Shown: in pieces, positions 5,539 through 11,553 of the stretch | Layout: each line of letters opens with the position of its first letter | How positions within the stretch are numbered: the stretch's first letter is position 1 | Assembly (NCBI RefSeq): GCF_000313755.1 | Contig: NZ_AMZB01000093.1 | Coordinates: forward strand, 1-64,000 | Source: Pseudomonas nitroreducens TX1 | GTDB taxonomy: Bacteria > Pseudomonadota > Gammaproteobacteria > Pseudomonadales > Pseudomonadaceae | Length of the DNA stretch: 64,000 nt | Reading direction: 5' to 3' | Position numbers and translations under genes: made by a program | The notes under the pieces: generated by a model | What the model saw: the letters and a program-made list of their open reading frames with translations, nothing else | Told to the model about the DNA's origin: nothing | Database searches by the model: none

Positions 5539-5557
5539 TTCTGCACAGCGAAACATC
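5539..5557. promoter_or_regulatory. putative IclR operator, copy 1
   Basis: TTCTGCACAGCGAAACATC lies in the divergent control region, 53-71 bp upstream of the ligase start. The identical 19 bp recur in inverse orientation at 11535-11553, upstream of the bifunctional acyl-CoA enzyme. The site has TTC...GAA arms, giving an imperfect palindrome of the sort bound by dimeric regulators. Assignment to the adjacent IclR protein is inferred from position. Confidence 0.55.
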
Positions 5558-5697
5558 GTGTCGAAATCGATGGTATGCGATAGGCTAGCCCGACGCAACG
5601 AGTACACGCGGACCGCTGCGTGGCGACGGGGCGATCTGCTATCGTTCGCCCGCGCCGCGCGTGGCGCCGCAACAGCAATCCCCCCCGCCGAGGCCCC

Positions 5698-6483
5698 ATG
5701 AGCGACGACGTCGAAGACAGCAGCAACCCCAAGGACCGCAAGTACGTCGAGGCGCTCGCCCGCGGACTGGACGTGCTGCGCGCCTTCACCCACGGTTCGG
5801 TGGTGCTCGGCAACCAGGAAATCTCGCGGATCACCGGCCTGCCCAAGGCGACGGTTTCACGCATGACCTATACCCTGACCCAGCTGGGCTACCTCTGCTA
5901 TTCGCAGCAGCACGAGAAGTACCAGCTGGATTCCGGCGTGCTGGCGCTGGGTTACGCCTATGTCTCCAACCTGCGCGTCCGCCAGTTGGCCAAGCCGTAC
6001 ATGGACGCCTTCGCCCGCCGTACCAACACCACGGTCGGCCTCACCTGCCGCGACTGGCTGTCGATGATCTACGTGGAAAACTGCCGCCCGCCGGAAGCCA
6101 CTTCCCTGCGTATGGACGCGGGCGTGCGCCTGCCGCTGGCGACCACCGCCGCCGGCCGCGCCTACCTGGCTGCGACTCCGCAGCAGGAGCGCGAGCACTT
6201 GCTGTCGGCTCTGCAGGAACGGCATGAGGGGGATTGGGCGGTGATGCGCGCTTCGTTGGACGCCTCTTTCGAAGAGTACGACGAGCACGGCTTCTGCCTG
6301 TCCCTTGGCGACTGGGACCGCAACGTGCGCGCTGCCGGTGTGCCGTTGCGCCTGGCCGACGGCGGGCTGATGGCGCTGACCTGCGGAGCACCGTCGTTCC
6401 AGTTGAGCGAGGAGACGCTGCGCGGGTCGCTGGCCCATGAGCTGGAAATCCTGGCGCGGGATATCGAGAGCCTTGGGGCCTGA
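5698..6483 (+). CDS. IclR-family transcriptional regulator
   Basis: A 261-residue protein with an N-terminal winged helix-turn-helix (KYVEALARGLDVLRAF, then NQEISRITGLPKATVSRMTYTLTQLGYL, about residues 15-70) and a C-terminal IclR effector domain (about 90-260). This is the usual family length. The ATG at 5698 was chosen over an upstream in-frame start because the protein then begins right before the conserved DNA-binding part. It is divergent from the acyl-CoA ligase. The identical 19-bp sequence in both acyl-CoA promoters suggests it controls both units, probably in response to an acid or acyl-CoA from the pathway. Confidence 0.88.
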   Translation: MSDDVEDSSNPKDRKYVEALARGLDVLRAFTHGSVVLGNQEISRITGLPKATVSRMTYTLTQLGYLCYSQQHEKYQLDSGVLALGYAYVSNLRVRQLAKPYMDAFARRTNTTVGLTCRDWLSMIYVENCRPPEATSLRMDAGVRLPLATTAAGRAYLAATPQQEREHLLSALQERHEGDWAVMRASLDASFEEYDEHGFCLSLGDWDRNVRAAGVPLRLADGGLMALTCGAPSFQLSEETLRGSLAHELEILARDIESLGA

Positions 6484-6507
6484 GCCCTGGCAGGGAGAAC
6501 CGCTTTC

Positions 6508-6609
6508 GTAGGAGCGGAGCTTCTCCGCGAAATCCATCGCGGCTCACTCGGTGTCCTATGTGAACGCCTGCCTCATGCACCCGTGTAGGAGCGGACTTTG
6601 TCCGCGATG
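6508..6609. repeat. two variant REP elements
   Basis: GTAGGAGCGGAGCTTCTCCGCG (about 6508-6531) and GTAGGAGCGGACTTTGTCCGCG (about 6586-6607) are a REP variant with a GCGGA...TCCGC stem instead of GCGAGC...GCTCGC. They follow the IclR stop codon. The same variant appears at the left edge of the window. Confidence 0.7.
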
Positions 6610-9391: not shown

Positions 9392-9401
9392 GGCGGGTCC
9401 T

Positions 9402-11501
9402 CTACAGATCGGCGAAGCGGCGGCCTTCGGCCACCAGGCGTTCGAGCAGCGGTGCGGGCTTCCACCACGCGCCCAGGCGCTGGTGGAACTCGCGGATTCG
9501 TTCGAGTACGTGCGCAAGGCCCACGCTGTCGGCATGGAACAGCGGGCCGCCGCGCCACGCGGGGAAGCCGTAGCCGTTGACGAATATCACGTCGACGTCA
9601 CTGGCGCGCTGGGCGATGCCTTCGTCGAGGATGTTGGCGGCCTCGTTGACCAGTGAGTAGATGCAACGCTCGACGATCTCCTCATCGCTGACCGGCGCGC
9701 GGGTAATGCCGCGTTCGGCGGCGGCCTGCTCCAGCATGGCCGGCAGCGCCGGGTTGTCCTGTGGGGCGCGGCCGCCTTCGGCGTAGCGGTAGAAGCCGGT
9801 GCCGGTCTTCTGCCCGAGCATGCCGGCGGCGATCAGGTGATCGAGCACGGTGGGCAGCGTCTGGCCGGGCTTGAGGTTCGGCCGCTGGCGCGAGCGGATT
9901 GCGTGACTGATGTCCAGGCCGGACAGGTCGCGCACTGCCAATGGCCCCATGGCCATGCCGAAGCTGCGTAGCGCGCGGTCCACCTGCGCCGGTGTGGCGC
10001 CCTCCTCCAGCAGGAACTCGGCCTGACGGCCGTACTGGAAGATCATGCGGTTGCCGACGAAGCCATCGCACACGCCGACCACCACCGAAACCTTCTTCAG
10101 GCGCTTGCCCAATTGCATGGCGGTGGCCAGCACGACGTCCGAGGTGGCCTTGCCGCGCACCACTTCGAGCAGGCGCATGACGTTGGCCGGGCTGAAGAAG
10201 TGCAGGCCGACCACGTCCTGCGGACGCTCGGTGAAGGCGGCGATTTCATCGAGGTCCAGCGAGGAGGTATTGCTGGCGAGGATCGCGCCGGGTTTGCATG
10301 CGGCGTCCAGTCGCTCGAAGACCTGGCGCTTCACGTCCAGGCTTTCGAATACCGCTTCGACCACCACGTCCGCATCGCCCAGTGCAGCGTAATCGAGCAC
10401 GCCGCTGATCAGGCCCATGCGCCGTTCCAGCTCGTCGGCGCTCAGGCTGCCGCGCGCCACGCTGGCGGCATAGGTGCTGCGGGCGCGGTCGAGGCCGCGT
10501 TGCAGGGCTTCGTCGTTCACCTCCAGCAGCTTGACCGGAATGCCGGCGTTGGCGAAGCACAGGACGATGCCGACGCCCATGGTGCCGCCACCGATGACGG
10601 CGGCGCTGCGCACTTCGCGCAGCCGGGTATCACTGGCGAGGCCGTCGACCTTGGCCGCCTCGCGCTCGGCGAAGAAAGCGTGGATCTGCGCGGCGCGTTG
10701 TGGCGACTCCATGCACTGCATGAACAACTCGCGCTCGCGCACCAGGCCTTCACGCAGCGGCAGCTGGGTGGCGGCTTCCACGGCGTCGATGCAGCGCTGC
10801 GGCGCGAACTGGCCGGGCAGGCGCTTCTGCACTTCGCCGCGCTTGTGGGCGATCAGCTCGGCCAGGCCGCTTTCCTGTACGCGCCCGTTGCATTCGCCGG
10901 TGCGGCGCGGACCCCTGCCGTCCGCCAGTAGGCGCTGGGCGTAGGCGAGCCCGGCTTCGATCAGGTCGCCGTCGAACAACTCATCGACGACGGTGAATTC
11001 GAGGGCTTCCGGCGCACGGATCGGCGTGCCGGAGACGATCATGTCCAGGGCCTTCTCGACGCCGGCCAGGCGCGGCAGGCGCTGGGTGCCTCCGGCGCCG
11101 GGCAGCAGGCCGAGCTTCACTTCCGGCAGGCCGACCTGGGCGTCACGCCGGGCGATGCGGTAATGGCAGGCCAGGGCGACTTCCAGCCCGCCGCCCAGGG
11201 CGGTGCCGTGGATCACGGCGACGCTGGGTTTGCTGGTGCCTTCGAGGATATCGACCACGTCAGGCAGGGAGGGCGCTTGCGGCGGCTTGCCGAACTCGCG
11301 GATATCGGCGCCGGCCATGAACGTGCGTCCGGCACACACCAGCACCACCGCGCGCACCTGCGGATCGGCCTCGGCCTCGGCCTGCTGGAAGGCGGCGAGC
11401 AGGCCAGCACGGACGGCATGTCCGAGGGCGTTCACCGGTGGGTTGTCGACCGTCACCAGGGCAATCTCGCCCCGGCGTTCGAGCTGTACCGCTTCTGACA
11501 T
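9402..11501 (-). CDS. bifunctional enoyl-CoA hydratase / 3-hydroxyacyl-CoA dehydrogenase (PimF/FadJ-like)
   Basis: A 699-residue fusion enzyme. The N-terminal crotonase domain (about 1-190) has the oxyanion-hole segments AGADIREFG and HGTALGGGLEVALACHYRIA, plus GLLPGAGGTQRLPRL. The Rossmann 3-hydroxyacyl-CoA dehydrogenase domain (about 300-480) has AAVIGGGTMGVGI and HFFSPANVMRLLEVV, followed by two 3HCDH C-terminal modules (VCDGFVGNRMIFQYGRQ; VNEAANILDEGIAQR). It hydrates the enoyl-CoA and oxidises the 3-hydroxyacyl-CoA. A CGGAG site precedes the ATG. It is the first gene of the operon, with the putative IclR operator 34-52 bp upstream. No thiolase is encoded in this cluster, so the cleavage enzyme must come from elsewhere. 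Confidence 0.9.
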   Translation of the reverse strand: MSEAVQLERRGEIALVTVDNPPVNALGHAVRAGLLAAFQQAEAEADPQVRAVVLVCAGRTFMAGADIREFGKPPQAPSLPDVVDILEGTSKPSVAVIHGTALGGGLEVALACHYRIARRDAQVGLPEVKLGLLPGAGGTQRLPRLAGVEKALDMIVSGTPIRAPEALEFTVVDELFDGDLIEAGLAYAQRLLADGRGPRRTGECNGRVQESGLAELIAHKRGEVQKRLPGQFAPQRCIDAVEAATQLPLREGLVRERELFMQCMESPQRAAQIHAFFAEREAAKVDGLASDTRLREVRSAAVIGGGTMGVGIVLCFANAGIPVKLLEVNDEALQRGLDRARSTYAASVARGSLSADELERRMGLISGVLDYAALGDADVVVEAVFESLDVKRQVFERLDAACKPGAILASNTSSLDLDEIAAFTERPQDVVGLHFFSPANVMRLLEVVRGKATSDVVLATAMQLGKRLKKVSVVVGVCDGFVGNRMIFQYGRQAEFLLEEGATPAQVDRALRSFGMAMGPLAVRDLSGLDISHAIRSRQRPNLKPGQTLPTVLDHLIAAGMLGQKTGTGFYRYAEGGRAPQDNPALPAMLEQAAAERGITRAPVSDEEIVERCIYSLVNEAANILDEGIAQRASDVDVIFVNGYGFPAWRGGPLFHADSVGLAHVLERIREFHQRLGAWWKPAPLLERLVAEGRRFADL

Positions 11502-11534
11502 GCTGTGCTCCGTTTAGATTTGTTTTAACGGAAT

Positions 11535-11553
11535 GATGTTTCGCTGTGCAGAA
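11535..11553. promoter_or_regulatory. putative IclR operator, copy 2
   Basis: Reverse complement of the sequence at 5539-5557, identical over all 19 bp. It lies 34-52 bp upstream of the start of the bifunctional acyl-CoA enzyme, where a regulator would overlap or abut the promoter. It is not part of the REP family, whose copies here begin about 50 bp further upstream. Confidence 0.55.

Follow-up and report, generated by a model that had tools for sequence, protein, structure and literature searches.

Two identical 19-bp sequences as candidate operators of an IclR-family regulator in a beta-oxidation-type gene cluster of Pseudomonas nitroreducens TX1

Does a 19-bp sequence that occurs twice in one gene cluster serve as the operator of the regulator encoded between its two copies? 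This question is raised by a stretch of 64,000 nucleotides from Pseudomonas nitroreducens TX1 (RefSeq assembly GCF_000313755.1, contig NZ_AMZB01000093.1, positions 1 to 64,000 of the forward strand), the whole of which is called the window below. The sequence, TTCTGCACAGCGAAACATC, is exact at 5539-5557 (+), in the divergent region between an acyl-CoA ligase gene and an iclR-type regulator gene, and at 11535-11553 (-), upstream of a gene for a bifunctional enoyl-CoA hydratase/3-hydroxyacyl-CoA dehydrogenase (BIF). An original prediction, made from the letters of the window, had taken the pair for strong candidate operators of the IclR protein. Conservation, tracking of the regulator and motif shape all support this claim, in a correlative way, and we put the probability that the two sites, named O1 and O2, are operators of the IclR-family protein encoded between them at about 0.82. 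A conserved site, the position of this site and its co-occurrence with the regulator are established by comparison of genomes. The link to the neighbouring IclR protein is strong but correlative, and it is drawn from the way the site follows the iclR orthologue through 298 genomes and from its rough likeness in shape to the group-1 motif of the family. The operator pair most likely controls a small regulon of dicarboxylate-type beta-oxidation.

The repeated site and its conservation

The two copies are identical and the second is inverted, as predicted, each being an exact match in its stated place and strand; the sequences around them differ, which upholds the accompanying statement that the flanks do not match. 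When the whole genome (138 contigs, 6,692,487 bases, 6.69 Mb) was scanned for the 19-mer with up to 3 mismatches, just the two cluster copies were returned, and the reversed pattern used as control gave 1 match. Many unrelated copies elsewhere, which the prediction had named as evidence against itself, are thus absent. Shuffling the window with its dinucleotides preserved gave on average 0.03 matches within 3 mismatches, and 0 of 100 shuffles reached two. Beyond the short length of the sequence, nothing was found in favour of a chance match or a functionless remnant of a duplication; this chance expectation, the differing flanks and the conservation in four genera described below all speak against it, and we give this explanation practically no weight.

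Conservation covers a dyad of 16-17 bp, TTYYGC-N3-GCRRAA. Based on the exact pair and the conservation in relatives, the candidate operators were set as GTTCTGCACAGCGAAAC at 5538-5554 (+) for O1 and ATTCTGCACAGCGAAAC at 11538-11554 (-) for O2. The terminal ATC of the 19-mer reads ATG, ATA, AGT, AGC or otherwise in relatives, and because it varies between sites and relatives it is placed outside the conserved core; of the predicted shared site of 19 bp, the exact identity therefore stands and the last three bases are given up. Using the start codons at 5486 (-) for the ligase gene, 5698 (+) for iclR and 11501 (-) for BIF, the distances from site centre to gene are 60, 152 and 45 bp, respectively, with the site upstream in each case.

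A wider regulon inside the source genome was sought with TTYYGCNNNGCGRAA and rejected, with 21 matches versus 23 for the reversed control, palindromes being counted on both strands. Since the matches are no commoner than the control, no more than two sites are claimed in the source genome. Among these matches, A or T at both outer centre positions was found in the two cluster sites only.

In a genus search of 25 genomes, the regulator was present at 91% identity or more in 21, and the relatives having it at 92-100% identity include P. nicosulfuronedens, P. nitroreducens, P. pseudonitroreducens, P. citronellolis and P. panipatensis. From the 21 genomes, 20 iclR upstream regions and 19 BIF upstream regions were aligned; a genome on short contigs (G002) was left out and another (G019) was represented on the iclR side alone, via locus L084. 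The dyad centre stands 45-59 bp upstream of BIF in 19/19 aligned same-genus genomes. The longest invariant run of the BIF promoter, TATTCTGCACAGCG (14 nt), is present in all 19 rows, and with 34 of 230 columns invariant, 0 of 20,000 column shuffles reached a run of this length. O1 has nearly fixed arms around a centre that shifts from ACA to TCT or TGT; fixed arms together with changing outer centre positions match the expectation for a dyad read by a dimer.

Outside the genus, gene order differs in Stutzerimonas (g15; L090, L091), g5 and g14, and in g5 BIF lies immediately downstream of iclR in the same direction. For these loci the looser pattern TTYY[GA]CNNNG[CT]RRAA was used. It occurs upstream of the ligase gene in all 11 loci with a located ligase, and upstream of iclR in 14 of 20. 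Of the 20 non-genus loci, 19 have the dyad 38-67 bp upstream of BIF; in L077 it stands at 126 and 154 bp. Taking genus and other loci together (19 and 20; four genera), all 39 BIF upstream regions have the dyad followed, 4-5 nt on, by a TTYCRH box. In 37 of the 39, TA stands directly before TTYTGC, the exceptions being the g14 loci L073 and L074 with the arm TTCCGC. Comparison of related clusters thus finds the site kept upstream of the same genes, so that a lack of such conservation, the other outcome held contrary by the prediction, is also absent.

Association of the site with the iclR orthologue

The regulator gene (5698-6483, +; 261 aa), the presumed source of the protein binding O1 and O2, encodes the HTH_IclR and IclR_C domains, and its scores for PF09339 (57.5 bits) and PF01614 (77.9 bits) are both above the gathering scores, which places it in the IclR family. 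Its orthologue was called in the sample of 298 family genomes at E 1e-75 or better, giving 112 genomes, and 111 after G017 (a 49% paralogue) was dropped. The same genomes were searched for the 16-mer TTYTGCWNWGCGAAAC with no mismatch, and 137 strict matches were obtained in 96 genomes, with 7 for the reversed control (summed by eye). The 16-mer is present in 89 of the 111 genomes having the orthologue versus 7 of the 187 lacking it (Fisher p ~1e-45, relatedness not corrected for). Most matches lie close upstream of BIF or iclR: 71/137 at 300 bp or less upstream of a BIF orthologue and 25/137 at 300 bp or less upstream of an iclR orthologue or close paralogue (96/137 together), and a further 6/137 lie elsewhere within 15 kb of BIF/iclR genes. 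BIF orthologues (at least 63% identity) were found in 109 genomes, all of which carry the iclR orthologue; G168 and G201 have the regulator and gave no BIF match. The 7/137 matches in genomes without the orthologue were taken as chance; at the three that were fetched (L172, L173, L174), no open reading frame (ORF) of at least 120 aa starting within 300 bp downstream was found.

A different regulator could still read the sites, for example the second IclR protein of the genome (43% identical), leaving the neighbouring iclR a bystander. Among loci of IclR proteins below 50% identity, the TTYYGCNNNGCRRAA dyad precedes the regulator's own gene in 12 of the 26 scanned and is missing there from 14; the arm sequence is therefore common to part of the wider group, and specificities could overlap. 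Set against this, the site follows the orthologue of the neighbouring iclR in the genome counts given above, and the 43-45% paralogue has the dyad in 0 of 6 scanned loci (L026, L027, L028, L113, L120 and L121, out of 10 fetched). We consider control by another regulator quite improbable. As a further control, TTYYGCNNNGCRRAA was found in 0 of 20 BIF-like paralogues (50-54% identity, from 26 listed) in the 1.8 kb fetched upstream; some of these genes may sit inside operons with promoters elsewhere. At ten other loci (L109-L112, L114-L119), which encode IclR proteins of another class with about 46% identity, a TTTCGCNNNGCRRAA dyad precedes the regulator gene itself by about 110-140 bp.

Promoter overlap and possible mode of control

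IclR regulators of group 1 have the motif GKTYCRYW3-4RYGRAMC, with three-box variants, and their sites are mostly centred 20-80 bp before the gene (Suvorova and Gelfand 2021, PMC8222616). Counted by hand against the GTTYCRYW3RYGRAAC form of the GTT-11-AAC subgroup, O1 agrees at 15/17 positions and O2 at 14/17, which is a partial fit to the motif as given in that source. Shared with this group are an odd-length dyad of the GTT-11-AAC / WTT-11-AAW kind and, for the 45 and 60 bp distances, a place in the usual -20 to -80 range (PMC8222616). Some of its groups have three-box sites (PMC8222616), and likewise at O2 the sequence TTCCGT (11528-11533, -), invariant in 19/19 same-genus rows, is a possible third half-site.

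A promoter scan found one promoter-like pair upstream of BIF, TCGACA-17-TATTCT on the minus strand at 11578-11550, with 9/12 consensus matches and a mean of 0.1 in shuffles. The -35-like box TCGACA lies at 11573-11578, and after the 17-nt spacer the -10-like box TATTCT at 11550-11555 overlaps the left arm of O2. The transcription start would therefore fall inside the operator, and this overlap with the -10 box and the start suggests repression. The departure from the family consensus at arm position 5 (T in place of C) may be explained by the -10 box, whose last base is this same T. At both units the 5' end of the transcript could also include the element or lie close to it, and the element might then act in the mRNA leader, as an RNA structure or small-RNA target, instead of as DNA; its opposite orientation relative to the ligase and BIF genes and the overlap with the -10-like box at BIF make this very improbable.

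For a DNA operator, the following mechanism is proposed. An IclR dimer or dimer of dimers would bind the dyad, and at BIF the protein probably also touches the third half-site and covers the -10 box and the transcription start. Without inducer, the bound protein would block RNA polymerase at BIF. O1 would serve both divergent directions, leading to autoregulation of iclR. The inducer would most likely come from the medium-chain dicarboxylates, azelate or its CoA ester for instance, and would free the protein from DNA; this release would turn on the ligase, the 3-hydroxyacyl-CoA dehydrogenase, the two acyl-CoA dehydrogenases and the bifunctional enzyme together.

Several observations weigh against O1 and O2 being operators of this kind. 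By hand count, both miss the group-1 consensus at arm position 5 and at the centre, the left arm TTCTGC having T in place of the consensus C, and C standing at the centre in place of A/T (PMC8222616). O1, at its 152 bp from iclR, is outside the usual range, and a consensus promoter scan of the ligase/iclR region found none for ligase or iclR. Four other invariant runs at O1 (15, 10, 9 and 9 nt) exceed any inside the operator. On the ligase side, L057 and those Stutzerimonas loci that have a site upstream of iclR carry a degenerate arm (TTTTAC), and in L053 a ligase gene beside the site was looked for and none was found. Upstream of iclR, 6 of the 20 non-genus loci (L066, L067, L069, L071, L073, L074) gave no match even to the looser pattern. 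In the family sample, 22 of the 111 iclR-bearing genomes have no strict 16-mer match, and 28/137 strict matches lie elsewhere in iclR-bearing genomes, which is explained only in part.

PcaU, PobR and HmgR control genes of aromatic breakdown. An activator of the PcaU/PcaR type could occupy the same sites and recruit RNA polymerase instead of blocking it. The best-scoring NCBIfam model of the regulator is that of the PcaR/PcaU/PobR subfamily (TIGR02431, pcaR_pcaU), although its 128.8 bits stay below the cut-off of 284.75, and a ligase/iclR region without a consensus promoter would suit an activated promoter. PcaU, PobR and HmgR use three-box sites (PMC8222616); their operators share the three half-sites, but have arms of the GTNCG type, unlike those here. 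The dyad over the -10 box at BIF is an unusual position for an activator, and AzeR, a P. nitroreducens regulator taken up below, is reported to fit a repressor (PMC7398563), which counts here if the two proteins are the same. Activation is unlikely on this evidence, and repression by the neighbouring IclR protein is the reading carried forward.

The cluster, known systems and the wider regulon

The ligase unit, on the minus strand, consists of the acyl-CoA ligase gene (3855-5486; AMP-binding, FadD/PimA-like; Pfam PF00501 and PF13193, with FadD-type, PimA and other NCBIfam models below cut-off) and, as its second gene, a PaaH-like 3-hydroxyacyl-CoA dehydrogenase gene (2284-3840; NCBIfam NF006124 at 635 vs 508 bits, above cut-off; Pfam 3HCDH_N and 3HCDH). 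The other unit, on the same strand, contains BIF (9402-11501; FadB/FadJ-like; Pfam ECH_1, 3HCDH_N and 3HCDH, with the FadJ and FadB models below cut-off), a PimC large-subunit-like acyl-CoA dehydrogenase gene (8201-9388; TIGR03204 498 bits, cut-off 623.85), whose start was set from the beginning of the profile match, and a PimD small-subunit-like acyl-CoA dehydrogenase gene (7060-8190; TIGR03203 351 bits, cut-off 652.7). The pim operon of Rhodopseudomonas palustris encodes PimF, PimA, PimC and PimD, and its regulator there is of another family. The enzyme set here is similar, but the PimA (288/706 bits), PimC (498/624) and PimD (351/653) models all remain below their curated cut-offs; the 'pimelate-like' pathway of the original prediction can be kept at the level of enzyme families and not at that of these models.

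Other elements were observed around these genes. Next to O1, TGTCGAAAT (5559-5567, +) is invariant in 20/20 same-genus rows and may be an extra half-site. TATGCGATAG at 5574-5583, between O1 and iclR, is likewise invariant in 20/20 rows. The longest invariant block upstream of iclR, ATCTGCTATCGTTCG (5634-5648, +; 15 nt, 20/20 rows), is possibly the iclR promoter; it is also present in the Stutzerimonas loci L066, L067, L069 and L071 and is better conserved than the operator. Intergenic sequence 3' of iclR (6640-6800) holds a dispersed repeat of about 145 bp, found at 28 places in the genome including itself, with 69-100% identity. Short TTCGCGAGCAAGCTCGC-type inverted repeats, which we take to resemble Pseudomonas REP elements, are located at 11600-11690 and 6960-7045, near both ends of the dehydrogenase/BIF unit, and several of the aligned relatives have similar stretches upstream of BIF.

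The regulator may well be AzeR. The AzeR study of Bez et al. (2020) reportedly described mutants of two genes, one for an acyl-CoA ligase and one for an acyl-CoA dehydrogenase, a pair that would suit the cluster. A journal editorial describes AzeR of P. nitroreducens as a repressor-like factor of an azelaic-acid-use cluster with a beta-oxidation-like pathway (PMC7398563); the likeness covers both the kind of cluster regulated and the species group. It is an IclR-family regulator whose targets are stated to be unknown, and its Phycobacter counterpart lies beside TRAP genes (PMC10945470); here, TRAP DctP genes with the operator were found in four Stutzerimonas loci. A literature search with six 15-mer variants found no record of the motif in the papers covered, and the available parts of PMC12543098, PMC7398563, PMC10945470 and PMC11683335 give no operator for such a dicarboxylate-type regulator.

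Genes adjoining dyads in other genera were scanned for families in two sets of ten. The dyads adjoin an OprD-type porin gene and a thioesterase-like gene in L073, a TRAP DctP gene and a short-chain dehydrogenase gene near an iclR paralogue, as well as an ORF without family, in L081, an MFS gene and an ORF without family in L062, an ORF without family in L080, an NMT1-like binding protein gene in L077 and a 3-hydroxyacyl-CoA dehydrogenase gene in L079. Of the 28 out-of-cluster strict matches, 16 were fetched, together with the in-cluster L175, whose adjoining gene is NMT1-like. Nine genes by the 16 matches were scanned, some of the 16 lying inside ORFs as mechanically called; the nine genes comprise four TRAP DctP genes (Stutzerimonas), four AraC-type regulator genes (g5) and one without family. 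The g5 loci are L165, L166, L167 and L168, where a strict-type 16-mer precedes genes for AraC-type regulators that are not part of the cluster. We give about even odds to a broader view, in which one operator-defined regulon spans at least four genera, with a constant beta-oxidation core, the same IclR sensor and exchanged uptake genes (TRAP DctP, OprD-type porin, MFS, NMT1-type), and in which the left arm of O2 serves at the same time as the -10 box and is read by both regulator and polymerase.

In conclusion, the system appears to be a normal local IclR switch, of a known kind with useful detail. Judged from sequence comparison, it is a credible and fairly ordinary switch, probably for the use of dicarboxylic acids, and azelaic acid is the compound indicated by what has been published on a P. 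nitroreducens regulator for a cluster of this kind (PMC7398563, PMC10945470). Sensors of dicarboxylates are wanted, since plant and algal microbiomes are modulated by azelaic acid (PMC10945470) and dicarboxylates serve as monomers of plastics (PMC12543098). A defined candidate operator, a two-site regulon and uptake-gene candidates in relatives make a direct binding or reporter test possible, and if the sensor is AzeR, the wider regulon would supply candidate targets of the azelaic-acid response.

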